Source of the DNA: a virus
Direction: 5' to 3' (one strand)
IMG/VR virus record: IMGVR_UViG_3300033146_000595
Coordinates: 1-54,814 of that record
Length of the DNA: 54,814 bases
Part shown: positions 11,050-33,309 of the stretch, one piece after another
How the letters are laid out: each line of letters opens with the position of its first letter
Numbering within the stretch: the first letter of the stretch is position 1
Notes under the pieces: generated by a model
Database searches by the model: none
The model's input: only the letters and a program-made list of their open reading frames with translations
What the model was told of the DNA's origin: nothing
Made by a program: the position numbers and the translations under genes

Positions 11050-11053
11050 CCTG

Positions 11054-11617: not shown

Positions 11618-11618
11618 A

Positions 11619-11795: not shown

Positions 11796-11808
11796 GTAGG
11801 TAGCGAAT

Positions 11809-15660: not shown

Positions 15661-15684
15661 AAAAAATAAAAGGAGAAATAAAAA

Positions 15685-16827: not shown

Positions 16828-16836
16828 AAATCAATT

Positions 16837-17314: not shown

Positions 17315-17329
17315 TAAAGGACGTGTATT

Positions 17330-18649
17330 ATGGCAGGAGTACAATTAAGAGATTACCAATATGACGCGATTGAAAAAATGTTTAATGGATGTATCCTTAA
17401 TGGTGGTACCGGGGTTGGAAAATCTCGTACCGCTCTTGCCTATTATTATATTATGAATGGTGGTGAAGTTAATACCTCCAAACATATAAAAATGAAGGCT
17501 CGACCTAAGGATTTGTACATCATTACAACCGCTCTTAAACGGGATAAGAAAGAATGGGAGTTAGAGTTACTTAACTTTCGCATGTCTGTTGACCCTATGG
17601 AGAGTGGTTATAAGCATAAAATAGTAATAGATAGTTGGAATAATATCAAAAAGTACATGGATGCAAAAGACGCATTCTTTATTTTTGATGAGCAACGAGT
17701 TATAGGCTATGGTGCTTGGACTAAATCGTTCTTAAAAATAACCAAAGAAAACGAATGGATATTACTATCTGCTACACCGGGTGATACGTGGTCTGACTAC
17801 ATGCCCGTGTTTATAGCAAATGGATGGTATAAGAACAAAACAGATTTTGAAAGAAAGCATGCTGTGTGGTCTAGATATTCTAAATACCCAAAGATCGAAC
17901 GATGGGTTAATGAAGGAAGATTAATACGTTTGCGTAAACATATTCTGATTGAGATGGCTATGATTAGAAGTACTGTACAACATCACGAACATATAATAGT
18001 GGATTATGATAAATTACTATATGCTTCGACGGCAACAAAACGATGGAATCCATACTTAGATAAACCTATAATAAACGCAAGTGAATTTTGTTATACGTTG
18101 CGTAAGATTGTTAATAGTGATCCATCAAGGTTTTATGCGGTCATTGGTATTCTAAAGAAGAAGCCAAAGGCTATAATCTTTTACAATTATGATTATGAGC
18201 TTGGTTTATTACGACGGTTATTCGGAGACACTCATAGAATCACAGAAAAGAATAAAGACAAACAAGATAGTATTACCAAGGATGATATTCCATGGATTCA
18301 TTTAGTGGACGAGCGAATCGCGAAGTCTGAGTGGAATGGTCATCGACATGAAAAAATACCCAGTGGGGATTATTGGGCGTACCTTGTTCAATACGCTGCT
18401 GGCTCTGAGGGTTGGAACTGTGTCACTACAGACACTATTATATTCTACTCGCTGAATTATTCATATAGAGTGCTTATGCAGTCAAGCGGACGAATCGATA
18501 GGATGAATACTCCATATACGGATTTATATTACTATCATCTAACGAGCCAAAGCAAGATTGACTTGGCTATACGTAATGCTCAGAAACGTAAGAAAAAATT
18601 TAATGAAAAAGGATTCTCACCAGAATTCCTAGAGGAGGAAATAAAATAA
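17330..18649 (+). CDS. SF2 helicase (SNF2/DEAD-like)
   Basis: A 439-residue ATP-dependent helicase or translocase. Motifs in order: an LRDYQYDAIEKM-type Q region at the N-terminus, Walker A GGTGVGKS (residues 25-32), motif II FDEQR (Asp120-Glu121), motif III LLSATPG (about residue 145), and in the second RecA domain AAGSEGWN (motif V) and QSSGRIDRM (motif VI). This is the compact phage form without accessory domains. It probably remodels replication or recombination intermediates alongside the polymerase and nucleases. It overlaps the next gene by one base. Confidence 0.85.
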   Translation: MAGVQLRDYQYDAIEKMFNGCILNGGTGVGKSRTALAYYYIMNGGEVNTSKHIKMKARPKDLYIITTALKRDKKEWELELLNFRMSVDPMESGYKHKIVIDSWNNIKKYMDAKDAFFIFDEQRVIGYGAWTKSFLKITKENEWILLSATPGDTWSDYMPVFIANGWYKNKTDFERKHAVWSRYSKYPKIERWVNEGRLIRLRKHILIEMAMIRSTVQHHEHIIVDYDKLLYASTATKRWNPYLDKPIINASEFCYTLRKIVNSDPSRFYAVIGILKKKPKAIIFYNYDYELGLLRRLFGDTHRITEKNKDKQDSITKDDIPWIHLVDERIAKSEWNGHRHEKIPSGDYWAYLVQYAAGSEGWNCVTTDTIIFYSLNYSYRVLMQSSGRIDRMNTPYTDLYYYHLTSQSKIDLAIRNAQKRKKKFNEKGFSPEFLEEEIK

Positions 18650-18870
18650 TGGATGCAAAACAAAAGACATATTTAATTAATGATAAAGAAGTTACAGAAG
18701 CAGTGTTTATAAATGAATTAAATTATCAGTTGAAGTTGGAGAAGCGACAAAACATTAGCCATGGTAAATTTACACAGGATGAACTGTTTAGTGTGGTTAT
18801 GAATAATGAAAAAAAATCAACATTCTTCGAAGTGGGTAATAAGAAATTTAAATGTTATCCGAACGCATAA
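18649..18870 (+). CDS. Hypothetical protein, 73 aa
   Basis: A small soluble protein with an AGAGGAGG site inside the helicase gene end, so translationally coupled. Not recognised. Its stop overlaps the next motif copy. Confidence 0.55.
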   Translation: MDAKQKTYLINDKEVTEAVFINELNYQLKLEKRQNISHGKFTQDELFSVVMNNEKKSTFFEVGNKKFKCYPNA

Positions 18871-18893
18871 ATTACATTGCCTACTATAGAAAG
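18864..18893 (+). promoter_or_regulatory. Recurrent early promoter-like motif, copy 6
   Basis: CGCATAAATTACAT, seven bases TGCCTAC, TATAGA at 18885. The SD GGAGGA is at 18895-18900. A sigma-type start seven bases past a -10 at TATAGA would fall inside the SD, whereas a start at the G of TATAG would keep it. The motif begins inside the previous gene's last codons. Confidence 0.65.
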
Positions 18894-18906
18894 AGGAGGA
18901 GATAAA

Positions 18907-19173
18907 ATGAACGATAACAATTTTAAAAAGTTGGTTTATGCAGGATTTGGTTTGATTTTCTTAAACGGTATTAAAAATAGAGTACTACGCATCAGACGAA
19001 ACAACAAAAGGGTTGAGACAATTAATGAAATAGTTGAAACAATCAACGATGTTGGCGAGATGGGTATGGGAACTGTTGACTGTGTTAAGGAACTTACTAG
19101 AATTGTGGTAAACCATGATAAGAAAATTATTGATATTCAAAACAATCCAAAACTTAAGAAGAAGAAGGTCTAA
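18907..19173 (+). CDS. N-anchored small protein, 88 aa
   Basis: The start is ATG 18907, nine codons after AGAGGAGG context begins; a longer frame from 18877 would include the motif and SD and is rejected. A short hydrophobic segment (about residues 9-20) is followed by a basic stretch and a soluble helical domain. Function unknown. Confidence 0.6.
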   Translation: MNDNNFKKLVYAGFGLIFLNGIKNRVLRIRRNNKRVETINEIVETINDVGEMGMGTVDCVKELTRIVVNHDKKIIDIQNNPKLKKKKV

Positions 19174-19187
19174 CACAGACTTTTTTC
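19164..19187 (+). terminator. Rho-independent terminator
   Basis: AAGGTCT and AGACTTTT form a hairpin around the stop codon, with T-run 19181-19186. Confidence 0.7.
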
Positions 19188-19199
19188 TTCTATTGTTTG

Positions 19200-19229
19200 C
19201 GCAAAAAATACATTGCCTACTATAGGAGG
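19200..19229 (+). promoter_or_regulatory. Recurrent early promoter-like motif, copy 7
   Basis: CGCAAAAAATACAT, seven bases TGCCTAC, TATAGG at 19221. TATAGG runs directly into the SD (TATAGGAGG), so transcription must start no later than the first G if the SD is to be used. This copy argues most strongly against a standard -10 reading. Confidence 0.65.
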
Positions 19230-19239
19230 AATGATAGAT

Positions 19240-19422
19240 ATGAAGATTAAATTCATTAAGGATTTCGGAACCGGTGCTATAGGTATAAAGATAGGCGAAG
19301 AATTTGAGGTTGTTACTAAGAAAGAAGCAGACAAATGGAATGACTATGTACGGTATCAGATTAGGATAACCGGTATTCTGGGAGTTATTAATGTACCATC
19401 AGCATATGTAATAGAACTATAA
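19240..19422 (+). CDS. Small hypothetical protein, 60 aa
   Basis: The start is set at ATG 19240 (MKIKFIKDFG), ten bases after AGGAGG; ATG 19231 is only one base from the SD. A soluble beta-rich 60-residue protein with Gly-Ile-Lys and Gly-Glu-Glu turns, possibly SH3-like. Not recognised. Confidence 0.55.
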   Translation: MKIKFIKDFGTGAIGIKIGEEFEVVTKKEADKWNDYVRYQIRITGILGVINVPSAYVIEL

Positions 19423-19453
19423 TAGAGAGATCACAAAGGTCTTTCTATTTTAT
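19423..19453 (+). terminator. Rho-independent terminator
   Basis: AATAGAGAGATC pairs with GGTCTTTCTATT (with G-U pairs) around an ACAAA loop, then TTTT. Confidence 0.7.
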
Positions 19454-19479
19454 ATTTTAAAAAATAGAAGGAGAAAGAG

Positions 19480-19539
19480 ATGAAAAACGAAGAAAGAAAA
19501 TATTTTAGAGTATCAAGAAATGTATTAATATGGAGTTGA
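19480..19539 (+). CDS. Possible 19-residue peptide or decayed cassette
   Basis: ATG 19480 follows a strong GAAGGAG site and opens only 19 codons. The leader and first codons (19449-19491) repeat those of the zinc-ribbon gene at 1921-1963 with very few differences. This could be a short leader peptide before the 19546 gene or the remnant of a duplicated cassette. Confidence 0.3.
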   Translation: MKNEERKYFRVSRNVLIWS

Positions 19540-19545
19540 TAATAT

Positions 19546-20184
19546 ATGTGTAAAGAATTAAAAACAATCGGTATAGCAGGTGAAGGTGCCACTGGTAAAA
19601 GTGGTATGGTTGAACAAATAGTAAAGGACGTTAATGAAACATTACGTAAACGTGGAATAATAATAGCTGTATACCCAGGAATGGGACAGGATTTAATCAG
19701 TGATATTTATGATGAGTATGTTTATATGGATGTTAGTAGTCTTGATTTTTACGACTCTGATAACCACAAAACAAATACCAAAACGTATATCGAAGATGCG
19801 ATTGATATTGTGTCTGTGGAAAAAGGAAAGTATAGTGTGTGTTTTGTCGATGCTACTGATGAAATATTAGAAGCTTTGGCGTCTTTTAATGAACCATACG
19901 TTATATTCTATCCGGTAACTCCAAAAGAATCAATATTAAAAATGTTAGCTCAGATGTATGTGGCGAATCCTAGTGCTGGTCGCGCGAAGACGATAGCGGA
20001 CGTAATATTACACCACGAAGAAAGAATCAATGAATTAAGATTATATCCTAATTCAATAGGAGCATCAACGGGTATAATCAATGAGGATTTAGTGAATGAT
20101 TTGGTTTCTATGAGTTATGAAGAACGATTGCAAGTAATACGGGCATTCTCTATGATGAAAACTAGTTCGAAGAGGGGTAAATGA
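19546..20184 (+). CDS. P-loop NTPase or kinase-like protein, 212 aa
   Basis: The P-loop GEGATGKS (residues 12-19) lies right at the N-terminus, as in nucleotide kinases and RecA-fold proteins. VCFVDATDE (near residue 105) could be a Walker B strand. Later VIFYPVTPKESIL and HHEERINELR are consistent with a nucleoside or nucleotide kinase-type fold, as used in phage dNTP supply, but I cannot assign a substrate. It lies between the early cassettes and the small replication-region genes. Confidence 0.6.
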   Translation: MCKELKTIGIAGEGATGKSGMVEQIVKDVNETLRKRGIIIAVYPGMGQDLISDIYDEYVYMDVSSLDFYDSDNHKTNTKTYIEDAIDIVSVEKGKYSVCFVDATDEILEALASFNEPYVIFYPVTPKESILKMLAQMYVANPSAGRAKTIADVILHHEERINELRLYPNSIGASTGIINEDLVNDLVSMSYEERLQVIRAFSMMKTSSKRGK

Positions 20185-20185
20185 T

Positions 20186-20413
20186 ATGGTCGTGGCCCCC
20201 GAAAAGAATTGGATAACGTTTGATTACGTAAAGGGTGATATGATCGCTCATCAACCTCATGTTTTAACCAAGGGTGATAGAGTAGAGATTGATCACTTGG
20301 ATGGTGTTTATGAGGTGTATAGAGCAGATTTTTATACCGTGACCATCATTAATGTTGATACGAATGTACACCTGATCATACATATCAGAGATGTTAAAAG
20401 GGTGTGTGTGTGA
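20186..20413 (+). CDS. Hypothetical protein, 75 aa
   Basis: A small, probably beta-rich soluble protein, one base after the preceding stop. Its TGA overlaps the next ATG. Not recognised. Confidence 0.5.
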   Translation: MVVAPEKNWITFDYVKGDMIAHQPHVLTKGDRVEIDHLDGVYEVYRADFYTVTIINVDTNVHLIIHIRDVKRVCV

Positions 20414-20784
20414 TGGGACGAACATTAAGAACATTATCTGACATGCGTGCTGAACGGAGATATAAGAACGCCATCATCATTGATAATTGGCATCACTTAA
20501 AAGATTGGTATTCTAAAAATGGTCCATCAGACACACACGAGATAGTGTTTGATGATCACTCTGCTCGAATACAAGTGCGTAAAGAATTAAGAGATAAGAC
20601 TGGTTATTATGGTACGTATGGTAATCATTACCATTACCTATCAACTCATACTTTTTATGGGATGGGTATTTGGATTCAATCAACAGAACAATTATACAAA
20701 GCTGGATTCAAAGGAATCATCATTCGTAACTGGGATGCAAAAGAAGAAAATCAAGAATGGCCCAAGGAAACATGGACCAGTTAA
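20413..20784 (+). CDS. Hypothetical protein, 123 aa
   Basis: ATG 20413 overlaps the previous TGA, giving a 123-residue His/Tyr-rich soluble protein (GNHYHYL, DNWHHL). The many histidines could bind metal, but no recognised family motif is present. Confidence 0.5.
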   Translation: MGRTLRTLSDMRAERRYKNAIIIDNWHHLKDWYSKNGPSDTHEIVFDDHSARIQVRKELRDKTGYYGTYGNHYHYLSTHTFYGMGIWIQSTEQLYKAGFKGIIIRNWDAKEENQEWPKETWTS

Positions 20785-21122
20785 AAAAATACATCCTGAA
20801 CATTCGACATTTGACGGAGGAGACTCAGTTAGAGCTTAAGGAGTATGCCAATGAGTTACAGATCGATGACGAAACCTTGTGGTTTGATATTTGCATACAT
20901 AATTCAACAGAGGCCATACTAACCACCGATGACATACGTATGTTAATCACTAAGTATAGACCTAGAGCTATTGATACCTTATTAATATCATACGTTACCG
21001 TAAAAGCAATAATGCAAATTAGTGGGGTTAGTCAATACAATCCTTGGGGGGCGTATACCACACCCAAAAGAAAAAAGAAAAAAATATTTAATCAAGAAAC
21101 CAAACAATATGAATTTAAATAA
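20772..21122 (+). CDS. Hypothetical protein, 116 aa
   Basis: ATG 20772 has AAGGAA just upstream; ATG 20757 is an alternative. A mostly helical soluble protein with an acidic N-terminal half and a Lys-rich C-terminal tail (PKRKKKKIF), suggesting contact with nucleic acid. Function unknown. Confidence 0.5.
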   Translation: MDQLKKYILNIRHLTEETQLELKEYANELQIDDETLWFDICIHNSTEAILTTDDIRMLITKYRPRAIDTLLISYVTVKAIMQISGVSQYNPWGAYTTPKRKKKKIFNQETKQYEFK

Positions 21123-21206
21123 AAGGATGACTTAAAATAATTCATTGTTTACCTAAACAGGGTTTAGTAAAAACTTAAGCGTGTTTGCGCAAAAAAAGGA
21201 GAACTT

Positions 21207-21716
21207 ATGAGTAATATGAGTGAATTAGATATAGAAAGACAAGAAGCAAAGAGAGTAAGAGCGTATATAGCTAATGATATTCGAGTAGCAAGAGAAGTAT
21301 TCATTATGCAATTATGCTTAGCGTTATATGAAGAACAAGAAACTAATATAGAATTCGGAGTAACTAATTTTAGAGAGGTTATTAACGAATTCATTAAAGG
21401 TGATTCAGCAGACACATTAACTTTGGATGGAAAAATATTCTCATCCTACCTGGAAGACATCGCGTATGATGTGGGTGGCCCAGATGGAGATGATACGGCA
21501 TGCGTGTTCACGATGGTTGGGGACACGCCTCAAATCTATCCGATGAAAATGTATACGGTAACGTATGATATTAATGTGGTTCCATTAATCGTTGCTAAAG
21601 TTAGACGTGCTCAAAAATGGAAACGAGTTTCAACATTCATCGAGGCGACTAGTTTCAAAGAAGCTCGAGAAGTATTTAAAGCGGAATTCAAGAAGAATAA
21701 TTCAGATAGAAATTAA
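21207..21716 (+). CDS. Hypothetical protein, 169 aa
   Basis: ATG 21207 follows AAAGGAGA. An N-terminal helical part and a C-terminal alpha/beta unit (MYTVTYDIN...TSFKEAREVFKAEF) loosely like the small protein at 16301. It runs into a membrane-protein frame in the +1 register with no good start codon of its own. Confidence 0.55.
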   Translation: MSNMSELDIERQEAKRVRAYIANDIRVAREVFIMQLCLALYEEQETNIEFGVTNFREVINEFIKGDSADTLTLDGKIFSSYLEDIAYDVGGPDGDDTACVFTMVGDTPQIYPMKMYTVTYDINVVPLIVAKVRRAQKWKRVSTFIEATSFKEAREVFKAEFKKNNSDRN

Positions 21717-22005
21717 GAGAACCTGGACAGAAGCGTTCACGGACATATCACAGGCGTGGAAAGATTACAAATTAGATGATTGGAATAAAGTAGGTAAACC
21801 AATAGCGGTATTTTTCATCACGTTAACAAATGTTATGTATACATTAGTTATGCTTATGGGATTATTAATTATTACCATATTAATGAGCGTGGTGTTTCCC
21901 GCGTTAATCATAGTCGTTGGACCACCCATGTGGTTATTAGGATTGATATTTGAAAAGATAGTTAGAGTACTCAAGAAGAAGAGTGAGACGATAGCGGACG
22001 AATAA
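21592..22005 (+). CDS. Membrane protein with unclear start
   Basis: The frame can open at TTG 21592 but the first 35 residues look like out-of-frame translation of the previous gene. The convincing part starts near 21700 (KRTWTEAFTDISQAWKDYKL) and continues into two membrane spans (IAVFFITLTNVMYTLVMLMG and VVFPALIIVVGPPMWLLGL) and a basic tail. No ATG lies between 21592 and about 21835. Options are an ATA/ATT start, a +1 shift from 21207, or an ancestral indel. Confidence 0.5.
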   Translation: MLKLDVLKNGNEFQHSSRRLVSKKLEKYLKRNSRRIIQIEIKRTWTEAFTDISQAWKDYKLDDWNKVGKPIAVFFITLTNVMYTLVMLMGLLIITILMSVVFPALIIVVGPPMWLLGLIFEKIVRVLKKKSETIADE

Positions 22006-22020
22006 GAAAGGAGGAATCCT

Positions 22021-22221
22021 ATGATGTATAGTTATTGCGATTTATATGGGTATGGTAAACCATCTAGTTTATATGGGTATGGTAAACCATCTAGTAAGGA
22101 GTTGTATAGAGAGTACACTGAGAGTAGAACTAGAAGAATGGAGAAACCTTTTTTATACCCAGATCCGATATACAAAGACATTAGGAGTTATAGGTGTCGG
22201 AACCCAGATACTACTGATTGA
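22021..22221 (+). CDS. Small protein with tandem LYGYGKPSS repeat
   Basis: ATG 22021 after AAAGGAGG encodes 66 residues. A 27-base unit is perfectly duplicated (22041-22067 and 22068-22094), giving two copies of LYGYGKPSS; the rest is Arg/Tyr-rich. The perfect repeat suggests recent slippage. Not recognised. Confidence 0.5.
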   Translation: MMYSYCDLYGYGKPSSLYGYGKPSSKELYREYTESRTRRMEKPFLYPDPIYKDIRSYRCRNPDTTD

Positions 22222-22256
22222 AATTTAAGAAGAGTAGTTCATACAGAAGACCATAT

Positions 22257-22290
22257 AAAAAGAAGCGGCTACATAGTCTCTTCTTTTTTT
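22257..22290 (+). terminator. Rho-independent terminator
   Basis: AAAAAGAAG and CTTCTTTTT form a nine-pair stem around a 14-base loop, with a continuing T-run. It lies just before the next motif copy. Confidence 0.75.
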
Positions 22291-22294
22291 GTAA

Positions 22295-22324
22295 CGCATC
22301 AAATACATACCTCTTTATAGAAAA
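22295..22324 (+). promoter_or_regulatory. Recurrent early promoter-like motif, copy 8
   Basis: CGCATCAAATACAT, seven bases ACCTCTT, TATAGA at 22316. Start codon at 22342. Confidence 0.65.
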
Positions 22325-22341
22325 CTAAAGGAGGTTTTAAA

Positions 22342-22455
22342 ATGATTGAAGGATTAATATTTTGTACGTTATTTGTATTAGTATATGCAATAGTGAGACA
22401 CGAGTATTATAGAGACATAGATCGTAATAAAGCAGAGAAGGTTATAAGAGATTAG
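22342..22455 (+). CDS. Small membrane protein, 37 aa
   Basis: ATG 22342 after AAAGGAGG opens a 37-codon frame ending at TAG 22453-22455: a hydrophobic N-terminal half (LIFCTLFVLVYAIV) and a polar tail (YYRDIDRNKAEK). Flanked by its own motif copy and hairpin, it is the most compact complete cassette in the window. Confidence 0.6.
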   Translation: MIEGLIFCTLFVLVYAIVRHEYYRDIDRNKAEKVIRD

Positions 22456-22475
22456 GGAAATTTACATATTCCCTT
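22453..22475 (+). terminator. Hairpin terminator
   Basis: AGGGAA and TTCCCT pair across a loop of about nine bases at the stop codon, with a pyrimidine/T-rich tail to about 22483. Confidence 0.65.
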
Positions 22476-22483
22476 TCTTTTTT

Positions 22484-22513
22484 CGCACATATTACATGGT
22501 CCATAATAGAAAG
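22484..22513 (+). promoter_or_regulatory. Recurrent early promoter-like motif, copy 9
   Basis: CGCACATATTACAT, seven bases GGTCCAT, AATAGA at 22505 (A for T at the first position of the TATAGA block). Start codon at 22532. Confidence 0.6.
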
Positions 22514-22531
22514 AAAAAGGAGGAATAAATT

Positions 22532-23125: not shown

Positions 23126-23208
23126 TTATTTATATATTAATTTAAAATAAAATATTAATATAAGATTAACTTAGAAAAGTTTTTGACATTTGACACAAAT
23201 GATAGTGT

Positions 23209-23238
23209 CGCACTAAATACATAGTCTTTTATAGAGAG
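23209..23238 (+). promoter_or_regulatory. Recurrent early promoter-like motif, copy 10
   Basis: CGCACTAAATACAT, seven bases AGTCTTT, TATAGA at 23230. The last copy seen on the map, 82 bases before the VRR-NUC gene, so it would drive the nuclease pair and possibly the RNA polymerase-like gene. Confidence 0.6.
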
Positions 23239-23311
23239 AAGAGAGTATATTGCCGAAAAAGTGGTATACATTTATTTTTACATTTTACTCAGTTAGAGAA
23301 GGCGGAGATGT

Positions 23312-23647
23312 ATGATGAGAGAGACAGGTAAAAATGGGTATCAATCAGTAGTCAAGAATAAGTTGAAGAAACAATTTCCCGACTGCGAAGTACACAAGTT
23401 AGACCCAAATGATATTCAGGGTAGTCCAGACTTACTAATGCTATGTCCAATAACATGGGCCACATTAGAAGTTAAGGGTAGTAGTAAATCAAAAAGACAA
23501 CCCAACCAAGAGTACTACGTGAAGAAGCACGATAGTATGAGTTTTTCAAATATTATATTTCCCGAAAATGAAAAAGAAGTTTTTGACAGATTACATATAC
23601 ACGTTAAACACTTTAATAAAGGAGAAGGAGAACATAATGATATTTAA
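23312..23647 (+). CDS. VRR-NUC family nuclease
   Basis: A 111-residue stand-alone nuclease of the PD-(D/E)xK superfamily: GSPDLLML (Asp40), then LEVKG (Glu53, Lys55), then a Q-rich helix (KRQPNQEYYVKKH). This is the VRR-NUC arrangement used in phage Holliday-junction or flap processing. GGCGGAG precedes ATG 23312 (ATG 23315 also possible). It overlaps the next nuclease gene by 11 bases, suggesting joint expression. Confidence 0.8.
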   Translation: MMRETGKNGYQSVVKNKLKKQFPDCEVHKLDPNDIQGSPDLLMLCPITWATLEVKGSSKSKRQPNQEYYVKKHDSMSFSNIIFPENEKEVFDRLHIHVKHFNKGEGEHNDI

Positions 23648-24278
23648 TGAACATAAGAAATTAGAAGGACAACACGCTTTCTTAGGCGCGAGTACATACC
23701 ATTGGTTAAGATGGGATGAGGATACGCTTGAGAAAAGATACTATGGTAGATATTCAAAAACTATAGGAACGGCACTTCACGAGTTAGCGGCAGATTTAAT
23801 AAGTAACAAAATTAAATTGGCAAAGAGTGATAAGAAAATAATTATCATAACACTCACTAAACTAATGATACCAAGAGGTGCGTATGATCCAGAAGAAATA
23901 TTAAACAATCTAATGTCATTCGTTAATGATGCTATTGGATTTAGAATGGCTGCCGAGGTAATATTATTTTACTCACACAGTTGTTTTGGCACAACAGATA
24001 CTATAGTATTCGATGAATTCAATAAGATTCTAAGGATACACGATTATAAATCAGGAATCACACCATCCAAAATGGACCAGTTAATGATTTATGCTGCCCT
24101 ATTTTGTTTGGAGTATAAAAAGAATCCATTCGATTTTGAAACGGAATTACGAATATACCAAAACGGGGAAGTAATGATATTTACCCCAGAACCAACAGAG
24201 ATCGAAGGTGTAATGAATTTAATAGTTTTTAAAAATAAATCAATTTTAAAATTTTTAGAAAGGGAGTATAGAAGATGA
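23637..24278 (+). CDS. Cas4/RecB-like PD-(D/E)xK nuclease
   Basis: Start ATG 23637 is chosen because AAAGGAGAAGGAG lies just upstream; a longer frame from 23568 has no SD. The 213-residue product has Asp121 (FGTTDTIVF), Asp136-x-Lys138 (HDYKSG) and Gln148 (MDQLMIYA), the RecB/Cas4-type nuclease core, with an N-terminal helical region including a conserved-looking GTALHELA. No Fe-S cysteine cluster is visible, so it is closer to phage RecB-like exonucleases than to typical Cas4. A role in recombination or DNA degradation is inferred. Confidence 0.75.
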   Translation: MIFNEHKKLEGQHAFLGASTYHWLRWDEDTLEKRYYGRYSKTIGTALHELAADLISNKIKLAKSDKKIIIITLTKLMIPRGAYDPEEILNNLMSFVNDAIGFRMAAEVILFYSHSCFGTTDTIVFDEFNKILRIHDYKSGITPSKMDQLMIYAALFCLEYKKNPFDFETELRIYQNGEVMIFTPEPTEIEGVMNLIVFKNKSILKFLEREYRR

Positions 24279-27238
24279 GTCATGACATAAATGATTTAAC
24301 TGATGAAGAATACTTACTTCACTATGGTACTCCCAGACATTCGGGTAGATATCCTTGGGGTAGTGGTGAAGAACCATTCCAAAGAAGTGGTGATTTTTTA
24401 AGTAGAATAGACGACCTAAAAAAACAAGGTATGACCCCAACACAAATAGGCGAATCATTGGGTATTAAAACAACTCGTCTTAGAGCATTGGAGACAATAG
24501 CAAAGAATATTAGAAGAAAAGATCTATATTCCAAAGCTAAAACACTAAAGGAAGAAGGATTTAGTAATGTTCAAATTGCTGATAGACTCGGTCTTCGTGG
24601 GGAATCATCTGTTAGATCGTTATTAAACGCCGACTCATTGGCTAGGATGGCGATAGCAGATGACTTAACAAACACATTACGTGAATTAATTGACACGCGT
24701 GGTATGATTGATATTGGTGCTGGTGTACCTAGACAATTGGGTGTATCTAAAGAAAAAATGGATGTTGCCATAGAGATGTTAAAAAATGAAGGTTATGTGG
24801 TACATGGGAACAGAGTCCCACAAGTTACAAACATTGGTAAACTAACAACACTAAAAGTTATATGTCCTCCAGGCACACCATCATCCGCTATATATAATTA
24901 CGGGGATATTAAATCGGTATATGATGTGACATCATTCGATGGTGGTAAAACATTAAAACCAGCGTTTCGATATCCCGCTAGTCTAGATTCAAACAGGATA
25001 CAAATTAGATATGCAGAAGAAGGCGGTACTGAAAAAGATGGGGTTATAGAGTTAAGAAGAGGTGTGGATGATATTTCATTAGGCACATCAAACTATTCAC
25101 AGGTGCGTATATTAGTTGATGGAACACATTATTTAAAAGGTATGGCCGTTTATTCGGATAACATGCCAGATGGTGTAGATGTTATATTTAACACTAATAA
25201 AAAATCAAATGTTTCTAAAATGGACACTATGAAAAAAATAAAAGATGACCCATTGAATCCATTCGGTTCCACTATTAAAGAAAGAGGTGGACAATCAGAA
25301 TGGACTGATGAAAATGGTGTTGTGAGGTTGACCGTAATAAATAAGAGATCTGATGAAGGTGATTGGGGTAATTGGTCAAGGGAGATATCGGCTCAATTTC
25401 TATCAAAACAACCACAAAAGTTAATAGATAGACAGATTGATATTTCAATAAAAGCGAAAGTAGCCGAATTTGATGAAATTATGTCACTAACAAACCCAAC
25501 GGTCAAGAAAGCGTTATTAGAATCGTTCGCTGACGAATGTGACGCAGCCGCGGTTAGTTTGAAAGCTGCTGGATTACCAGGAGCTATGTATAAAGTTATA
25601 TTACCAGTGACATCACTAAAGGATAACGAAGTATATGCACCCCATCTAGATGATGGTTCCATGGTCGCACTAGTTAGGTATCCTCATGGTGGTACATTTG
25701 AGATACCAACACTAACGGTTAATAATAGGAACAAAGAGGCTATTAACATAATGACAAAAAACGCAACCGACGCGATAGGTATTAACGCGGTCGTAGCTGA
25801 TATTATGTCAGGAGCAGACTTTGATGGTGATACCGTAATGGTAATACCAATGAGTGATAGAATAAAAATTAAATCACAAAACCCACTAAAGGATTTAAAA
25901 GGGTTTGATACCATATTAGCATATGGACCAGATGAAACACACGTTGATTCTGATGGTAATGAGAGATACTATAGAGGTGGGAAAGAGTTTGCAATACTAA
26001 GTGAAACAAACACCCAAAATCAAATGGGTATCATATCAAATTTAATTACAGATATGACGTTACTTGGGGCTCCCAATGATGAATTAGCTAGAGCAGTTAA
26101 ACATTCAATGGTTATCATAGATGCTAATAAACATGGACTAGACTATAAGCAGTCTGAAGCAGATAATGGTATAAAGGCATTACATAAGAAGTACCAGACA
26201 CAAGTCGGTCCATCGGGTAAGATACATGGTGGAGCAGCTACATTAATATCTAAATCTAAGTCAAAAGCACCAGTTGGTGAAAGAAAGTTGGGTATGTATG
26301 TACATAAAGACACACTCAACGAACTAACACTGTTTGATGCTGATAATAAAATCTATTTAGATGAGAAGACTGGTCGTTTCTATACCGATAAAGAAAAGAG
26401 AACCATATACATTGATCGAAAGACTGGTGAGAAGCTATATACGTACACTAATCGGGAGTATATGCAGACGGCATATAAGAATGCTGCTGGAAAAACAAAA
26501 AAAGCATCGGTTATAGTTAAGGATGAGAAACTTTATTACAAAGGTGAAGATGGTACGTATAAAGAGATCACGAATGAAATAATTAAATCGATACCCGCCC
26601 TCACGTACTCAAAGAAGATGGCCGAAACCAACGATGCACACACACTATCATCAGGTACACCACAAGAAGAGGCTTATGCTGAGTATGCCAATCAACTTAA
26701 AGCACTTGGTAACCTTGCTAGACTTGAAACATTAACTATCACTAGTACACCTATGTCTAAGTCCGCTAAGGCGGCATACATAGAAGAGTATAAAACCCTT
26801 GTATTTAAGATAGATGAGGCATTACTCAATGCTCCAAGAGAAAGACAAGCACAAACAATGGCCGCATCAATTGTGCAATTGAGAAAACAAGAGAATCTTC
26901 GCATGACTCATGAGGAAGAGAGAAAGATTAGACAACAAGAGCTAAGTAGGGCCCGTATGCGTGCTGGTGCATCAAGAAAGATGATAGAAATCACACAAAA
27001 TGAATGGAATGCTATACAAGCGGGTGCTATAAGTACTCATAGATTAAAACAAATTATTGCTAATGCAAACATGGACATACTTAGACAGTTCGCAATGCCT
27101 AGAGCAAGATTAACATTGAGTCCTGCAAAACTAAGAAGAATAGAGAACATGTCGAGGTCTGGTTATACTACGGCCGAGATAGCTAAAGCATTAGGTGTAT
27201 CAGTTAGTACTGTATCTAAGACATTGAGAGGAGAATAA
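24275..27238 (+). CDS. Putative DFDGD-type RNA polymerase with HTH domains and N-terminal tag
   Basis: A 987-residue protein. The N-terminal tag is LLHYGTPRHSGRYPWGSG (about residues 14-31). Two HTH units follow (about 45-75, MTPTQIGESLGI; and 85-115, FSNVQIADRLGL) and a winged-helix-like part (about 130-185). The core contains YAPHLDDGSMVALVRYPHGG, FEIPTLTVNN and GADFDGDTVMVIP, with DFDGD at residues 515-519. DFDGD is the metal-binding signature of the RNA polymerase beta-prime double-psi barrel and of YonO-like phage polymerases. A C-terminal HTH (about 955-985, TTAEIAKALGVSVSTVSK) ends the protein. I recall similar phage proteins labelled structural. The polymerase call rests on motif and context; the second barrel was not located with confidence. 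Confidence 0.65.
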   Translation: MSHDINDLTDEEYLLHYGTPRHSGRYPWGSGEEPFQRSGDFLSRIDDLKKQGMTPTQIGESLGIKTTRLRALETIAKNIRRKDLYSKAKTLKEEGFSNVQIADRLGLRGESSVRSLLNADSLARMAIADDLTNTLRELIDTRGMIDIGAGVPRQLGVSKEKMDVAIEMLKNEGYVVHGNRVPQVTNIGKLTTLKVICPPGTPSSAIYNYGDIKSVYDVTSFDGGKTLKPAFRYPASLDSNRIQIRYAEEGGTEKDGVIELRRGVDDISLGTSNYSQVRILVDGTHYLKGMAVYSDNMPDGVDVIFNTNKKSNVSKMDTMKKIKDDPLNPFGSTIKERGGQSEWTDENGVVRLTVINKRSDEGDWGNWSREISAQFLSKQPQKLIDRQIDISIKAKVAEFDEIMSLTNPTVKKALLESFADECDAAAVSLKAAGLPGAMYKVILPVTSLKDNEVYAPHLDDGSMVALVRYPHGGTFEIPTLTVNNRNKEAINIMTKNATDAIGINAVVADIMSGADFDGDTVMVIPMSDRIKIKSQNPLKDLKGFDTILAYGPDETHVDSDGNERYYRGGKEFAILSETNTQNQMGIISNLITDMTLLGAPNDELARAVKHSMVIIDANKHGLDYKQSEADNGIKALHKKYQTQVGPSGKIHGGAATLISKSKSKAPVGERKLGMYVHKDTLNELTLFDADNKIYLDEKTGRFYTDKEKRTIYIDRKTGEKLYTYTNREYMQTAYKNAAGKTKKASVIVKDEKLYYKGEDGTYKEITNEIIKSIPALTYSKKMAETNDAHTLSSGTPQEEAYAEYANQLKALGNLARLETLTITSTPMSKSAKAAYIEEYKTLVFKIDEALLNAPRERQAQTMAASIVQLRKQENLRMTHEEERKIRQQELSRARMRAGASRKMIEITQNEWNAIQAGAISTHRLKQIIANANMDILRQFAMPRARLTLSPAKLRRIENMSRSGYTTAEIAKALGVSVSTVSKTLRGE

Positions 27239-27239
27239 G

Positions 27240-27524
27240 ATGATGAATACTAATAAAGCATTACGCCTTACAACAGTAGACAACCCTTATGATCCATTTA
27301 CTCATTGGAAAGAATGGCTGCTATTTGATACAAATGCAGGATACCATACCTGTTCTAGATTGGCAAGAGTCACGTACATTAGTGATGCGTTCACTGAACC
27401 AGAGATATATGAACGTATTGAAGAAGGAATGGACGTGTTGATCACTACTGGGTCTCTGTCTAAAGATGGATCCCTAATAGAATACAAAAAGGTAATAAAA
27501 GAAACCAACATTGCTAAACAATAG
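27240..27524 (+). CDS. Conserved partner of the DFDGD protein, 94 aa
   Basis: A small soluble protein beginning near LRLTTVDNPYDPFTHWKEW with GYHTCSRLARV. I recall the same DNPYDPF and GYHTC elements from small genes next to DFDGD-type genes in other phages, which would make it a likely functional partner. AGGAGA precedes two adjacent ATGs. Only one base separates it from the upstream stop. Confidence 0.6.
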   Translation: MMNTNKALRLTTVDNPYDPFTHWKEWLLFDTNAGYHTCSRLARVTYISDAFTEPEIYERIEEGMDVLITTGSLSKDGSLIEYKKVIKETNIAKQ

Positions 27525-29142: not shown

Positions 29143-29535
29143 ATGGCTTCTATATTAAATTCAGCGACCGACTCAATACTAGAACAGGTAAAAAAAATAT
29201 TGGGATTGGCCAGGGAATATACCTCATTTGACATCGATATTGCAATACATATTAATTCAGTGTTTAGTAACCTGACTCAAATGGGCGTTGGTCCGGAGGA
29301 TGGGTTTACTATAGATGGATATGACCAATGTTGGTCAGACTTCACCACATCAAATATATTAAAAACACAACAAATCAAATCATATTTACCATTAAAGGTT
29401 AGATCAATATTTGATCCACCACAAAACGCCAATGTGTTAAAAGCGATGAATGATTCCATCGCCGAATTAGAACATAGGCTTTTTATTGAGGAAGAAAATA
29501 GTAGATATGTCGAATCCGTTGTGGAGGAGGAATAA
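29143..29535 (+). CDS. Putative head-tail connector-like protein, 130 aa
   Basis: A soluble helical protein with DSILEQVKKILGL, FDIDIAIHINSVFSNL and a PPQNANVLKAMNDSIAELEHRL end. This resembles the gp6-like adaptor pattern of phage head-tail connectors, but its place before terL is unusual for that role. The weak SD and tight spacing suggest expression with its neighbours. Confidence 0.5.
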   Translation: MASILNSATDSILEQVKKILGLAREYTSFDIDIAIHINSVFSNLTQMGVGPEDGFTIDGYDQCWSDFTTSNILKTQQIKSYLPLKVRSIFDPPQNANVLKAMNDSIAELEHRLFIEEENSRYVESVVEEE

Positions 29536-29536
29536 C

Positions 29537-30070
29537 ATGATAAAAAAACATTTATCTCATCATGGAATCAAAGGGCAAAGATGGGGAGTAAGGCGTTATC
29601 AGAATCCCGATGGGTCGTTGACCGCATTGGGACAAAAGAAGTATAATACTGATAAGGACTATGACTCGAGATATAACAAAGCGTCTAGTGACGCACTTAC
29701 TAGAGACTATAAAGAAAGAGACGCGGCCGCAGCAAAAGCAATTATAACCGGTACTGGAAAAGCAGCCACACAAACATCTGTCGCTATAGGTAACTCTGGT
29801 AAAAACAAATCTAAAGTTATAAATACTAAAAATTATGGTAAAATTTCAGATAATGATTTGCGGGCTAGGATAAATCGCATTAATATGGAAAATACATATG
29901 GTGAATTAACCGGTGATGCAAAAAGAGTTAGGACTGGTTCGGATTGGACTAGAGAAATATTACAAACCACTGGAGCTGTTATTGGTGTAGCTGGTACCGC
30001 AGCTGGTATAGCATTAACGATTGCCCAAATTAGAAACAAACAAGTTCCAAAAGCCAAAGGAGGCCCATAA
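29537..30070 (+). CDS. Tagged late protein 1 (HHGIKGQ motif)
   Basis: Start ATG 29537 follows GGAGGAGGAA; an upstream in-frame ATG lacks an SD. The 177-residue product opens with KHLSHHGIKGQRWGVRRYQN, continuing into a DGSLTALGQKKY end. The tag is followed by a polar helical body and a C-terminal hydrophobic helix (TGAVIGVAGTAAGIALTI). Three more proteins nearby share this tag and the DNA encoding it. The tag's function is not established; a head-targeting or packaging signal is inferred from its restriction to late genes. Confidence 0.7.
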   Translation: MIKKHLSHHGIKGQRWGVRRYQNPDGSLTALGQKKYNTDKDYDSRYNKASSDALTRDYKERDAAAAKAIITGTGKAATQTSVAIGNSGKNKSKVINTKNYGKISDNDLRARINRINMENTYGELTGDAKRVRTGSDWTREILQTTGAVIGVAGTAAGIALTIAQIRNKQVPKAKGGP

Positions 30071-30074: not shown

Positions 30075-30557
30075 ATGGTAAAAAAATATTTATCACACCA
30101 TGGAATAAAAGGGCAAAAATGGGGAGTAAGAAGGTATCAAAATAATGATGGATCGTTAACGGCACAGGGTAGAAGAAAGTATAACGTTAATGATGATGGT
30201 ACCACGCAAATGAAAAAAAGTTATAAGAATAAACAACGCGCTATAGGCGCTGTTAAAACCCTTGTTGGTACATCCGTTGTATTAAGGGGTGGTTTAGGAA
30301 TAAGTAATGCAAAAAGAGCGAATCTCGGAACCAGATCTAATAGGAGATTTTTACAAACTGGTAATATTAATCGTAGCGTGACCAATATGTTAATTGGGTC
30401 TATAGTTGTGGGAGCCGGGGTAAAAAACTTTATTAATTCGGTGAAGGATCAAACATTCAATTCAACTGGTATGGGGGCAACTCCTGAATATTTCGAAGGT
30501 AAACCCAAAACCAGAAAACAAGTAATAGCTCAAGAAAAAAGAAATAAAGGTAAGTAG
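30075..30557 (+). CDS. Tagged late protein 2 (HHGIKGQ motif)
   Basis: ATG 30075 (upstream frame discarded). The 160-residue protein opens KKYLSHHGIKGQKWGVRRYQ and then follows a basic body with two hydrophobic helices (about residues 55-72 and 105-125). Its DNA in the tag region is more diverged from those at 29537 and 32830 than they are from each other. The start has only a poor SD and lies four bases after the previous stop. Confidence 0.65.
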   Translation: MVKKYLSHHGIKGQKWGVRRYQNNDGSLTAQGRRKYNVNDDGTTQMKKSYKNKQRAIGAVKTLVGTSVVLRGGLGISNAKRANLGTRSNRRFLQTGNINRSVTNMLIGSIVVGAGVKNFINSVKDQTFNSTGMGATPEYFEGKPKTRKQVIAQEKRNKGK

Positions 30558-30567: not shown

Positions 30568-32313
30568 ATGGCGTTATCTAATACTGCAACACCTATATAT
30601 TATGGTGAGTTTAGAGAAGCCGTAGTTAGAGGTGATATACCAGTATGTAGAGAAATCTCTATGGAGATGAATCGAATTGATGATTTAATCAAAAATCCAG
30701 GTATATACTATGATGATTTAGCAATAAACGGTTTTATCGAATATTGTGAAAAAGAATTAACCCTTACCGATGGATCTGATTTAAAAATGTTAGACACGTT
30801 TAAGTTGTGGTCAGAACAAGTATTAAGTTGGTTTTATTATGTGGAACGGAGTATATATGTAAAAGATGAAAGTGATAAACACGGCCACTATATAAAAAAG
30901 ATGATAAAGAAAAGATTGATTAACAAGCAATACTTAATAGTATCAAGGGGTGCCGCGAAGTCGATGTACGCATCAGTACTTCAAAGCTATTTTTTAAACA
31001 TAGACCCTAGTACGACATATCAAATAACCACTGCTCCAACCATGAAGCAGGCTGATGAAGTAATGTCTCCGATAAAAACAGCGATAACGAGAGCCAAAGG
31101 CCCTTTATTTCAGTTTTTAACAGAAGGATCTTTGCAGAACACAACTGGTTCAAAAGCTAATAGAGTTAAACTAGCCTCTACTAAAAGGGGTATCGAAAAC
31201 TTCCTTACTGGTTCTATCTTAGAGATAAGACCTATGAAGATTGACAAATTACAAGGATTAAGATGTAAAGTCGCTTCTATTGATGAGTGGTTATCGGGCG
31301 ATGTTAGAGAAGATGTTGTTGGAGCAATTGAACAAGGTGCTTCTAAAGTTGATGACTATTTGATAATAGCCGTATCATCTGAGGGTACTGTTCGTAATGG
31401 TTCTGGAGATACTATAAAGATGGAATTATTAGACATTCTAAAAGGGGAGTATGTTAACCCCCATGTTTCAATATTTTACTACAGATTGGATAGCGTTGAG
31501 GAAGTTGGAAACCCTGATATGTGGATTAAAGCTAATCCTAATTTAGGTAAAACAGTTTCTTACGAAACTTATCAATTGGATGTAGAAAGAGCTGAAAAAG
31601 CTCCCGCTGTTAGAAATGACATCTTGGCAAAAAGGTTTGGGATACCGATGGAGGGGTTTACTTATTACTTTACGTATGAGGAAACACTACCGCATCCTAA
31701 AAAGTCTTTTTGGGGGTTACCATGTGCACTTGGTGTGGATTTATCTCAAGGGGATGACTTCTGTGCATTCACATTCCTGTTCCCACTTCAAAATGGTGAA
31801 TTTGGTGTGAAAACTAGAAGTTACATAACAGACTTTACTTTATTAAAGTTGCCAACGGCAATGCGTTTTAAGTATGACGAATTCATGAGAGAAGGGTCGC
31901 TCGTTGTGCACGAAGGTGCTATACTCGATATGATCCAAGTCTATGAGGATTTAGACGAACATATAATAAAAGAAGAGTATGATGTAAGATGTCTTGGGTT
32001 TGACCCATATAACGCAAAAGATTTTATCGAAAGATGGCAATTAGAAAACGGTCCTTATGGGATTGTTAAAGTAATACAAGGAGCAAAAAGCGAATCGGTT
32101 CCTTTAGGAGAATTGAAAAATTTAGCAGAGGAAAGATTATTATTATTTGATGAAGACTTAATGACGTTTGCTATGGGTAACGCTATAACATTAGAAGACA
32201 CTAATGGGAATAGAAAACTTTATAAAAAACGTAGAGAAGCAAAGATTGACAATGTCGCAGCTTTAATGGACGCGTTCATTGCATATAAATTAAATAAGGA
32301 GGCGTTCGAATGA
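30568..32313 (+). CDS. terL: Terminase large subunit
   Basis: A 581-residue packaging motor and nuclease. ATPase: atypical Walker A SRGAAKS (residues 126-132), Walker B VASIDE (Asp239, Glu240). RNase H-like nuclease: Asp391 (GVDLSQGDD), Asp479 (GFDPYNA), and Asp561/Asp568 (DNVAALMDAF). Full length for the Terminase_1-type family. It docks on the portal and pumps DNA into the prohead. It is flanked by two tagged genes on each side, an unusual arrangement. Confidence 0.93.
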   Translation: MALSNTATPIYYGEFREAVVRGDIPVCREISMEMNRIDDLIKNPGIYYDDLAINGFIEYCEKELTLTDGSDLKMLDTFKLWSEQVLSWFYYVERSIYVKDESDKHGHYIKKMIKKRLINKQYLIVSRGAAKSMYASVLQSYFLNIDPSTTYQITTAPTMKQADEVMSPIKTAITRAKGPLFQFLTEGSLQNTTGSKANRVKLASTKRGIENFLTGSILEIRPMKIDKLQGLRCKVASIDEWLSGDVREDVVGAIEQGASKVDDYLIIAVSSEGTVRNGSGDTIKMELLDILKGEYVNPHVSIFYYRLDSVEEVGNPDMWIKANPNLGKTVSYETYQLDVERAEKAPAVRNDILAKRFGIPMEGFTYYFTYEETLPHPKKSFWGLPCALGVDLSQGDDFCAFTFLFPLQNGEFGVKTRSYITDFTLLKLPTAMRFKYDEFMREGSLVVHEGAILDMIQVYEDLDEHIIKEEYDVRCLGFDPYNAKDFIERWQLENGPYGIVKVIQGAKSESVPLGELKNLAEERLLLFDEDLMTFAMGNAITLEDTNGNRKLYKKRREAKIDNVAALMDAFIAYKLNKEAFE

Positions 32314-32314: not shown

Positions 32315-32833
32315 ATGAATAAAAAATATTTAATTCATCGCATTAGAAGCGATACGGATGATGTTTTAATTCATTACGGTACCAAAGGACAAAAATGGGG
32401 TATTAGAAGATATCAGAATCCCGATGGGTCTTTAACATCTGCTGGAACTCGTAGATATGGTACTGTTGAAAACATGGATCGAACAAGGTCTAGAAATCAA
32501 AGAGTAGCAATTGGTGTCGGGGTGACGACGGCCGTTGTTGCTGGGACCATCATTGCTCGTAAAAATCGTAGTTTAAAAAAAAGAATAAGAGTGAATGATG
32601 CGGCAGATGCTGCTAGAAAATCTAAGCAAAAAGCCACAAACGCTAAGAGAGCTGCTACAATAGCAAAAAAGAAAGCTAATGGAACTTGGAGGACTGCTAC
32701 CAAAATATCGATCCCAAAAGGCTCAGATGTTAAAATAACTAAGTATAGTAGTACTCTTGCTGGAACCCCATCCAATATTGTCAAAAGTGTATCTTATTAT
32801 TTAAACGTTTTTGGTGGTACTCTTAAACCATGA
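32315..32833 (+). CDS. Tagged late protein 3 (HYGTKGQ variant)
   Basis: A 172-residue protein with the tag set back about 20 residues: VLIHYGTKGQKWGIRRYQN, then DGSLTSAGTRRY. The tag reads HYGT rather than HHGI, which is the same HYGT found in the DFDGD protein. A membrane-like helix (VAIGVGVTTAVVAGTIIA) and a Lys/Arg/Ala-rich region follow. It starts one base after the TerL stop. Confidence 0.65.
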   Translation: MNKKYLIHRIRSDTDDVLIHYGTKGQKWGIRRYQNPDGSLTSAGTRRYGTVENMDRTRSRNQRVAIGVGVTTAVVAGTIIARKNRSLKKRIRVNDAADAARKSKQKATNAKRAATIAKKKANGTWRTATKISIPKGSDVKITKYSSTLAGTPSNIVKSVSYYLNVFGGTLKP

Positions 32834-33309
32834 TAAAAAAACATTTATCTCATCATGGAATTTTAGGGCAAAAATGGGGAGTAAGGCGTTATCAGAATCC
32901 CGACGGATCGTTGACCACTAGAGGCGTCAAACGTTATCAGCGATTGGACCAAAAGTGGATTAATAAAAAGTCCGATAGGGTGTATGATAAAGCCATGAAA
33001 GATTCGAAACCGGAAATGAAAGCCTATGTAAAAGAACTACGAACAAAGGCTCCAAATGCTGGTAAAAGAACCATATTTAATATGTATAATAAAAAATTGG
33101 CATCGGTGATGAGAACCAAAACAAAAGACATTAGGTCACCATCTGGTAAAGTAATAGAATGGGTTGCCAAAAGAGGAACCGTTGGGGTTCATATGGCGTT
33201 GGCAGACCAGGGTTACGATATTAATAAATTAAAAAACGGTGTATGGGCTGATGGAAGAATCGCCTATAGAAAAAATCTAGTAGACATGCAAGAACAGAAA
33301 GGTGGTTAA
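32830..33309 (+). CDS. Tagged late protein 4 (HHGILGQ motif)
   Basis: A 159-residue basic protein opening KKHLSHHGILGQKWGVRRYQ. The first 85 bases are nearly identical to the start of the 29537 gene, indicating a duplicated or converted block. The body is basic and helical with no membrane span, unlike its three relatives. It overlaps the previous gene by four bases and precedes the portal. Confidence 0.65.
   Translation: MIKKHLSHHGILGQKWGVRRYQNPDGSLTTRGVKRYQRLDQKWINKKSDRVYDKAMKDSKPEMKAYVKELRTKAPNAGKRTIFNMYNKKLASVMRTKTKDIRSPSGKVIEWVAKRGTVGVHMALADQGYDINKLKNGVWADGRIAYRKNLVDMQEQKGG

Follow-up and report, generated by a model that had tools for sequence, protein, structure and literature searches.

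The window analyzed here, the entire stretch of 54,814 nucleotides of the IMG/VR virus record IMGVR_UViG_3300033146_000595, encodes a single-chain two-barrel RNA polymerase (RNAP) that, with a probability we put at about 0.72, is carried in the virion under the direction of an address tag, initiates transcription of the early genes and boosts that of its own operon. The family and fold of the polymerase, its promoter, the co-occurrence of these elements and the conservation of the tag are established at the level of sequence comparison.

The RNAP gene (ATG at 24275, end of the stop codon at 27238, + strand) overlaps the stop (24278) of the upstream exonuclease gene, and is situated between the latter and an HNH/TerL/portal/protease-MCP block. 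The features of the locus are:

1290..22514, +, eleven other promoter copies, starting at 1290, 1641, 2227, 3538, 5063, 6291, 8411, 18863, 19199, 22294 and 22483
23208..23239, +, promoter of the nuclease/exonuclease/RNAP operon (score 22.5)
23312..23647, +, small nuclease-like gene, first of the RNAP operon (by position; counterparts annotated as endonuclease)
23634..24278, +, exonuclease, phrog_3953, overlapping the RNAP start
24275..27238, +, single-chain two-barrel RNA polymerase, phrog_4291, 987 aa
24302..24367, +, RNAP N-terminal tag, residues 10-31, DEEYLLHYGTPRHSGRYPWGSG region (invariant residues; predicted disordered)
24374..24622, +, two N-terminal helix-turn-helix (HTH) regions, residues 34-62 and 66-116 (model helices, weak profile matches)
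25127..25147, +, HYLKGMA, residues 285-291, proposed second-barrel basic motif (alignment)
25817..25831, +, DFDGD metal-binding loop, residues 515-519 (alignment)
27113..27229, +, C-terminal sigma-r4-like HTH, residues 947-985 (Pfam HTH_23 match)
27240..27524, +, 94-aa protein of unknown function, phrog_4303
29143..29535, +, virion structural protein family phrog_4247, positional counterpart of 1706 orf6
29531..30070, +, tagged cargo candidate 1, HHGIKGQRWGVRRYQ, DUF7211
30075..30557, +, tagged cargo candidate 2, HHGIKGQKWGVRRYQ
30568..32313, +, terminase large subunit
32315..32833, +, tagged cargo candidate 3, HYGTKGQKWGIRRYQ
32830..33309, +, tagged cargo candidate 4, HHGILGQKWGVRRYQ
33313..34566, +, portal protein
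34559..36403, +, head maturation protease/major capsid fusion (fusion annotated in relatives)

An earlier, sequence-only reading of this DNA had placed the polymerase gene against the packaging genes. It does precede the HNH/TerL/portal block, but an early-class promoter stands before the group of nuclease genes to which it belongs, and it is therefore not a classical late gene. The phrog_4303 gene adjoins it in every annotated relative examined, and the small nuclease-like gene at 23312..23647 has no PHROG match.

A full-length profile match (1160 bits, residues 9-985) assigns the RNAP to phrog_4291, a family already catalogued in about 250 phage records. The sequence-only reading had called the protein an RNA polymerase and proposed structure prediction followed by a search for barrels. 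With an AF2 model run on the homologue alignment (pTM 0.62), all eight Foldseek matches in the PDB at E<=0.001 are two-barrel polymerases, the nearest being QDE-1 (3.5e-7) and RDR2, with TM-scores that are low, at about 0.25; matches to beta-prime domains span about 140 columns. By these matches the predicted fold probably contains two double-psi barrels, and a sequence search of the PDB yielded chance and HTH matches only. The assignment as a two-barrel polymerase is further supported by invariant active-site motifs. The stretch G513-D519, which opens GADFDGDTVMVIP (residues 513-525), is invariant in an alignment of 15 divergent homologues, and the DxDGD metal loop of the first barrel within it (D515 F516 D517 G518 D519), earlier singled out as the center of the enzyme, is invariant in a 25-sequence alignment as well. 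The segment VALVRYPHGG..PTLTVNN lies at residues 464-484. R278 and K288 are likewise invariant among the 15 homologues, and HxxKGMA is invariant in the family; by its resemblance to the HGxKG of the beta subunit, HYLKGMA is the putative basic motif of the second barrel. All three HTH regions of the earlier account are retained, the C-terminal one (947-985) by its match to HTH_23 (2.3e-9) and the two N-terminal ones on predicted helices at 34-62 and 66-116 with weak, repressor-like profile matches.

The names in RefSeq and PHROG would make this enzyme an RNA-dependent RNA polymerase, and its top fold matches, QDE-1 and RDR2, are indeed cellular enzymes of that kind. However, we find this hardly credible, as the name goes back to distant homology, the RNAP has fused HTH domains and a promoter partner in the genome, and related phage enzymes with two barrels in a single chain, YonO for one, use a DNA template (PMC5467207). 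YonO, with which the sequence-only reading had compared it, is similarly a phage enzyme of one chain in which a motif of the DxDGD type occurs, but membership of the RNAP in the YonO family was rejected (BLASTP E 1.9, hhalign probability 0.2), there being no detectable sequence similarity. YonO also lacks the tag, and the promoter motif described below is absent from the 30 kb examined.

Among the RNAP phages of Firmicutes and Actinobacteria, de novo motif search recovered a single promoter motif, TCGCANNAATTACANNNNCTATAATGA-like, confined to early genes and to their coding strand. Its 12 copies in the window, most commonly of the form TCGCATnAAwTACATnnnnnTTATAGAAA, all lie on the + strand between 1.3 and 23.2 kb, with none on the - strand or in shuffles, as befits the promoter class postulated earlier. 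Beyond the copy serving the RNAP operon, 10 of the 11 others precede, at a distance of 41-56 nt, a start codon that has a Shine-Dalgarno site. Fifteen RNAP phages each have 2-16 copies (- strand 0, shuffles 0), 160 further RNAP loci have 271 on the + strand and 0 on the - strand, and a copy occurs within 2.5 kb 5' of the RNAP gene (median 950-956 nt) in 110/122 loci. A blind scan of 2.9 million viral contigs found the motif in at least 120 stretches versus 1 for the mirrored pattern, and RNAP is encoded by 25 of the 26 tested motif-bearing contigs of at least 40 kb. These associations argue that dedicated early-gene promoters accompany this RNAP; the earlier proposal that it transcribes early genes gains a sequence association with a promoter that appears host-independent.

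A host sigma-A promoter, with or without the help of a phage activator and leaving the RNAP some other template, is conceivable, given that the 3' block of the actinophage copies is TATAAT, resembling a -10 box, and that phage HTH proteins could be activators. Yet the spacing from the upstream block to TATAAT is ~13 nt as opposed to 17, there is no TTGACA, the A at position 2 of a -10 box is missing from most copies in the window, and the CGC..CA..T..T register is constant between Firmicutes phages of 35% GC and phages of Actinobacteria. Together with the near-universal presence of RNAP on the long motif-bearing contigs, these features render the sigma-A explanation very unlikely. Predicted sigma-70 promoters and terminators near the RNAP gene are not above shuffles.

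The second element that we associate with the virion-carried polymerase is its N-terminal tag, which includes LLHYGTPRHSGRYPWGSG (residues 14-31) and lies in a region of low model confidence (pLDDT < 50 at residues 1-29). H16, G18, S23, G24, R25, G29, S30 and G31 are invariant in the alignment of 15 divergent homologues; because of this invariance neither the tag nor the catalytic motif can be attributed to chance. Four ORFs at 29531-33309 carry H[HY]G[IT]KGQKWG[VI]RRYQ or a close variant, which corresponds to Pfam DUF7211 (PF23847), a domain of unknown function. Among 54 such cargo proteins, 53 match DUF7211, and the tag alone is common to them (mean column identity 8%). In the 160 loci all 157 tagged ORFs are on the RNAP strand, and tagged ORFs are 3' of the RNAP gene in 63/68 loci; none was found in the plasmids searched. 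Outside the RNAP genus counts, tag-positive phage records comprise one from Rhodococcus and one from Bifidobacterium.

When a profile of the cargo tag was searched against 5592 ORFs, the first 7 non-cargo matches were RNAP N-termini, with individually weak E-values (0.025 to above 1), and DUF7211 was not among the Pfam matches listed for the RNAP. Both kinds of tag have the first half acidic-x-L-x-HYG in common, and differ in the second half (GMKWG in cargo versus SGRYPWGSG in RNAP). This comparison supports the RNAP tag as a divergent DUF7211 tag, lying outside the Pfam model, that would mark the enzyme for the head. Alternatively, DUF7211 could be a docking or processing site of structural proteins that the RNAP N-terminus resembles partly or by chance, as the differing second halves, the failure of the Pfam model and the weak E-values might indicate. 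We consider this doubtful in light of the common first half, the top rank of the RNAPs among non-cargo ORFs, the deposition of a double-tagged protein, orf7 of Lactococcus phage 1706, as structural, and a prophage, apparently devoid of head genes, whose RNAP has a decayed tag. In that prophage, the only such case and one drawn from a metagenome-assembled genome, the RNAP body retains 144/149 invariant residues and the tag 3/8. The earlier claim that the tag leads to the head hence keeps its footing in the shared half, the location of the cargo genes and this decay, but not in Pfam.

Across 348 Lachnospiraceae genomes RNAP is present in 8, the tag in 8 and both in 7 (Fisher P 5.5e-13), the one genome with a tag and no full-length RNAP having its tag on a 20 kb contig fragment. 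The co-occurrence of RNAP, tag and promoter in part reflects ancestry, because all are inherited with the head module in one phage lineage.

The virion location draws on phage 1706, whose orf75 is an orthologue of the RNAP (38% identical). In the EU081845 deposit both orf75 and orf7 are labeled 'structural protein', the majority of the other genes being 'unknown' or 'putative'; the label, which presumably has an experimental basis, is repeated in the ReqiPepy6 deposit ('similar to 1706_gp75, structural protein'), and orf75 was later renamed by RefSeq. This deposited annotation supports a virion location of the 1706 orthologue, and the sequence-only reading, which had made the window's RNAP a virion protein, would be correct by extension to the window's own phage. 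Members of phrog_4291, 1706 orf75 and actinophage proteins named 'HTH DNA-binding' or 'RNA-dependent RNA polymerase' are full-length homologues with the same tag, gene order and promoter class, but were annotated by domain or distant homology, and the records and papers examined do not connect virion role, promoter and tag. A lead to Eggerthella phage PMBT5 was dropped, the text of the paper mentioning neither RNA polymerase nor phage 1706.

An RNAP that never enters the particle could be made early and serve later or late genes, with another enzyme reading the early motif. Such a role would parallel that of YonO, which transcribes the late genes of SPbeta (PMC5467207), and it would fit an operon that has an early-class promoter and stands directly 5' of the late genes. 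We nevertheless regard it as unlikely: the late region has neither copies of the early motif nor any other conserved motif in our search, the RNAP has no sequence relationship to YonO, the 1706 orthologue was deposited as structural, and an early enzyme would have no need of a head-type tag.

Under the virion-carried interpretation, a DNA-dependent two-barrel RNAP would be directed by its disordered N-terminal tag into the head and enter the cell with the phage DNA. There it would transcribe the early genes from the dedicated promoter independently of the host sigma factor, its fused HTH domains probably recognizing the promoter in place of sigma. One promoter copy would drive the operon holding the RNAP gene; since that gene is under its own promoter class, the entering enzyme would make more RNAP for the next particles. 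The adjoining late genes, which lack motif copies, could be reached by read-through from this operon. It is also conceivable, with odds only slightly better than even, that a modular address tag in a widespread phage lineage of Firmicutes and Actinobacteria brings many proteins of different families (RNA polymerase, acetyltransferase, 2'-5' RNA ligase-like, protease) into the head, from which they would be injected. The RNAP, once injected, would read a near-universal promoter, so that in different bacterial phyla these phages could transcribe independently of the host from the first minute.

Short N-terminal addresses for proteins of the head interior are exemplified by the capsid targeting sequence of T4, which works alike, whereas here numerous cargo proteins of diverse kinds bear the tag, and the RNAP bears an altered form of it. 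N4-like, jumbo, crAss-like and P23-45 phages are known to carry an RNA polymerase in the virion. The N4 enzyme is similar in its working, being packaged, ejected and active on early promoters, but has an unrelated T7-like fold, about 3500 aa and its own promoter type. Closer are two other two-barrel RNAPs, gp66 of the crAss-like phage phi14:2, which we take to have a virion role, and gp96 of Thermus phage P23-45. The latter, located in the virion, transcribes the pre-early genes (PMC10770324). It forms a fusion with the tape measure protein, whereas the present RNAP is separate, with a short N-terminal tag and fused HTH domains. The open literature searched yielded no account of the tag, the RNAP family or the promoter, singly or as one system; the combination earlier called undescribed stands as such, but the tag was already in Pfam and the RNAP already a PHROG.

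These observations bring a probable virion-carried RNAP, with unusually consistent comparative support, to an ordinary siphophage lineage, mostly of 43-78 kb. They also supply a probable function for DUF7211, turn the proteins bearing it into candidates for injection that can be tested one by one, and recover the virion annotation lost when 1706 orf75 was renamed. An orthogonal expression system could be built on the cross-host promoter. The lineage comprises about 250 sequenced records, with laboratory hosts that grow easily and many gut prophages, and sequence matches to it are also seen in assemblies of other phyla.

The 987-residue product of the + strand ORF at 24275-27238 (hereafter RNAP), for which the coordinates and motifs quoted in the sequence-only reading match the sequence exactly, is a single-chain two-barrel polymerase. 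In an alignment of 15 homologues, the others being 41-71% identical to the window protein, both the SGADFDGD catalytic block and an N-terminal tag of the form H-x-G...SGR..GSG are invariant. Structure prediction gave a mean pLDDT of 79.8 for the whole protein, with the tag region predicted to be disordered, and the fold search that had been suggested as a check recovered only two-barrel polymerases at E<=0.001, with QDE-1 as the top match. YonO-type enzymes had been named among the single-chain phage enzymes with the DFDGD loop; YonO of SPbeta shows no recognisable sequence relationship to the window protein. From the fold matches and this lack of sequence likeness, RNAP belongs to the two-barrel superfamily, and membership of the YonO family is not demonstrable. 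Of three HTH regions claimed earlier, the C-terminal one is significant in Pfam, whereas the two N-terminal ones appear in the model and as weak profile matches. Profile searches assign the protein to phrog_4291, which bears the PHROG name "RNA-dependent RNA polymerase" and occurs in 250 of 50,697 phage records, including phages of Arthrobacter, Gordonia, Streptomyces, Lactococcus, Rhodococcus, Curtobacterium, Microbacterium and Faecalibacterium, as well as gut phages. RNAP also occurs in the temperate Faecalibacterium phage FP_oengus (NC_047916), which has an integrase, and in apparent prophages of Lachnospiraceae genomes; these occurrences prompt the question of how lysogens keep it silent. 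Two RNAP genes (G046:C1:341-2968 and G012:C1:385-3327) each contain one in-frame TAG, a possible case of stop-codon recoding.

Repeats in the window yielded a 10-site profile on the + strand, and ungapped motif discovery, run per genome, recovered this motif again, with its register unchanged, from Gordonia, Arthrobacter and Microbacterium phages and a human saliva phage. A joint profile finds 2-16 sites per genome in 15 genomes, and none on the opposite strand of these genomes or in shuffled genomes. Positions C1 G2 C3, C12 A13, T21 and T24 are close to invariant. The sites precede early genes, with 10 of the 12 in the window lying 41-56 nt from a start codon with a ribosome-binding site, and none occurs in the late region. 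If a host sigma factor read these sites, one 27-base motif retained from Firmicutes phages of 35% GC to phages of Actinobacteria would not be expected; for a sigma-70 promoter the spacing is wrong, and the critical A of a -10 box is missing from most copies in the window. The copies at 6291 and 8411 have the form TATAATGA, the others being TTATAGAAA or a close variant, in identical register.

The promoter class put forward from sequence alone proved real and is associated with RNAP in both directions. Selection solely on the RNAP protein gave 160 loci, drawn from viral contigs and bacterial genomes, with 271 motif sites on the RNAP strand and 0 on the other; of the 122 loci having 2.5 kb of upstream sequence, 110 have a site within it, typically about 950 nt before RNAP. 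Conversely, a blind scan of 2.9 million viral contigs with the 27-nt pattern recovered at least 120 stretches, versus 1 for its mirror image, and RNAP is encoded by 25 of the 26 tested motif-bearing contigs of 40 kb or more. Shorter motif-bearing contigs, often devoid of RNAP, are likely to be fragments.

The gene order around RNAP is broadly conserved: nuclease, exonuclease, RNAP, a protein of 80-90 aa, the genome end or cos, and then HNH, structural gp6, TerL, portal and a protease/MCP fusion. Annotated relatives encode 1-8 proteins each, mostly between structural gp6, TerL, portal and protease/MCP, with a tag of the form L-x-H[YH]G-[VIT]-x-G-[MQ]-[KR]-W-G, after which [VI]-R usually comes. 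Among the tagged proteins are an acetyltransferase, a 2'-5' RNA ligase-like protein and a protease. This cargo tag corresponds to Pfam DUF7211, to which Pfam assigns no function. An alignment of 54 tagged proteins has a mean column identity of 8% and no invariant residues other than H, G, G and W. A 23-aa tag query found it in 227 of the 50,697 phage records, and tag and RNAP counts, made by name and not matched record by record, are equal for Arthrobacter (95), Gordonia (55), Streptomyces (54), Curtobacterium (7) and Microbacterium (4). Among 348 Lachnospiraceae genomes 8 have RNAP, 8 the tag and 7 both (Fisher P 5.5e-13). Six whole bacterial genomes with RNAP have DUF7211 1-3 times each, on the same contig and a few kb away where both locations were compared. 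In two other loci (L012 10435-11076, L014 7441-8052), a protein with a LAHYASKYYDPVKAREYYLRTRELKGR-type N-terminus is encoded between portal and MCP; these two match the tag profile weakly and are perhaps the scaffold or tag partner.

When a profile derived from the cargo tags alone was run against 5592 six-frame ORFs, seven RNAP N-termini ranked straight after the true cargo proteins; the nominal rank probability of 2e-19 is too strong a figure, the RNAPs being relatives of one another. Each score by itself is weak, and the matches extend over the first half of the tag (acidic-x-L-x-HYG). The partial sharing proposed earlier applies to this half; the second halves, GMKWG in cargo and SGRYPWGSG in RNAP, are no more than analogous, and the Pfam DUF7211 model does not match RNAP. 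Sequence comparison makes a common origin of the two tags likely.

Annotation supports a virion location for orf75, the RNAP orthologue of Lactococcus phage 1706 (Garneau, Tremblay and Moineau 2008, according to PMC4155818). It is an "RNA-dependent RNA polymerase" in RefSeq NC_010576, where the label "structural protein" of the original GenBank deposit, EU081845, has been lost. In that deposit 11 genes carry a structural label without "putative" (orf13 being the "major structural protein"), including orf62 and orf71 within the replication region, and unassigned genes are "unknown"; this pattern implies detection in particles, an experimental basis that we infer from the labels. The label was taken in this sense by those who deposited Rhodococcus phage ReqiPepy6, whose record has "similar to Lactococcus phage 1706_gp75, structural protein".

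A full RNAP occurs in eight Lachnospiraceae genomes, of which only one lacks the cargo tag; its RNAP lies in the following prophage:

CATJTQ010000130.1, 10001-21644: prophage of locus L293 (genome G311); expected head genes absent downstream of RNAP, tail genes present

Here the tail genes come directly after RNAP, and the tape measure protein is apparently 328 aa long versus 1964 in the window. Of 149 invariant body residues the enzyme retains 144, DFDGD and K288 among them, but of 8 tag residues only 3. Loss of the head genes with decay of the tag on an otherwise conserved enzyme is as predicted for a head-packaging signal, in what is a single case from a metagenome-assembled genome. The element could be tailocin-like and driven by its own RNAP.

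In the course of events that we consider likely, the tag would be bound inside the prohead during assembly, and RNAP would be ejected together with the DNA. The fused HTH domains and barrels would then initiate at the early motif, leading to expression of the early genes and of the nuclease/exonuclease/RNAP operon, possibly with read-through into the adjoining late block. Enzyme family, promoter motif and co-occurrence are shown by the sequence data, deposited annotation supports the virion location of an orthologue, and the function of the tag, recognition by the HTH domains and late read-through are inferred. Common ancestry ties RNAP, promoter, tag and head module together, and so their association cannot by itself prove every functional step; the 1706 deposit, the motif scan made blind and the head-less prophage are the supports with most independence. 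No prior description of this system was found in open-licence papers, and one may exist elsewhere.

Adjoining RNAP in all annotated relatives examined is a small phrog_4303 protein (window 27240-27524), a possible partner of the enzyme. Upstream of the late genes, at 27650-27895, a GC-rich block and, after it, an inverted repeat of 18 bp (CTTTAAGTATCTAGTCAG / CTGACTAGATACTTAAAG) probably form a cos or terminase site, which is conserved in another locus (L198) and in part right at the beginning of contig G001. TGTCAC occurs as several repeats, partly inverted, at 22905-23145 immediately upstream of the RNAP-operon promoter; these possibly represent an operator or origin.
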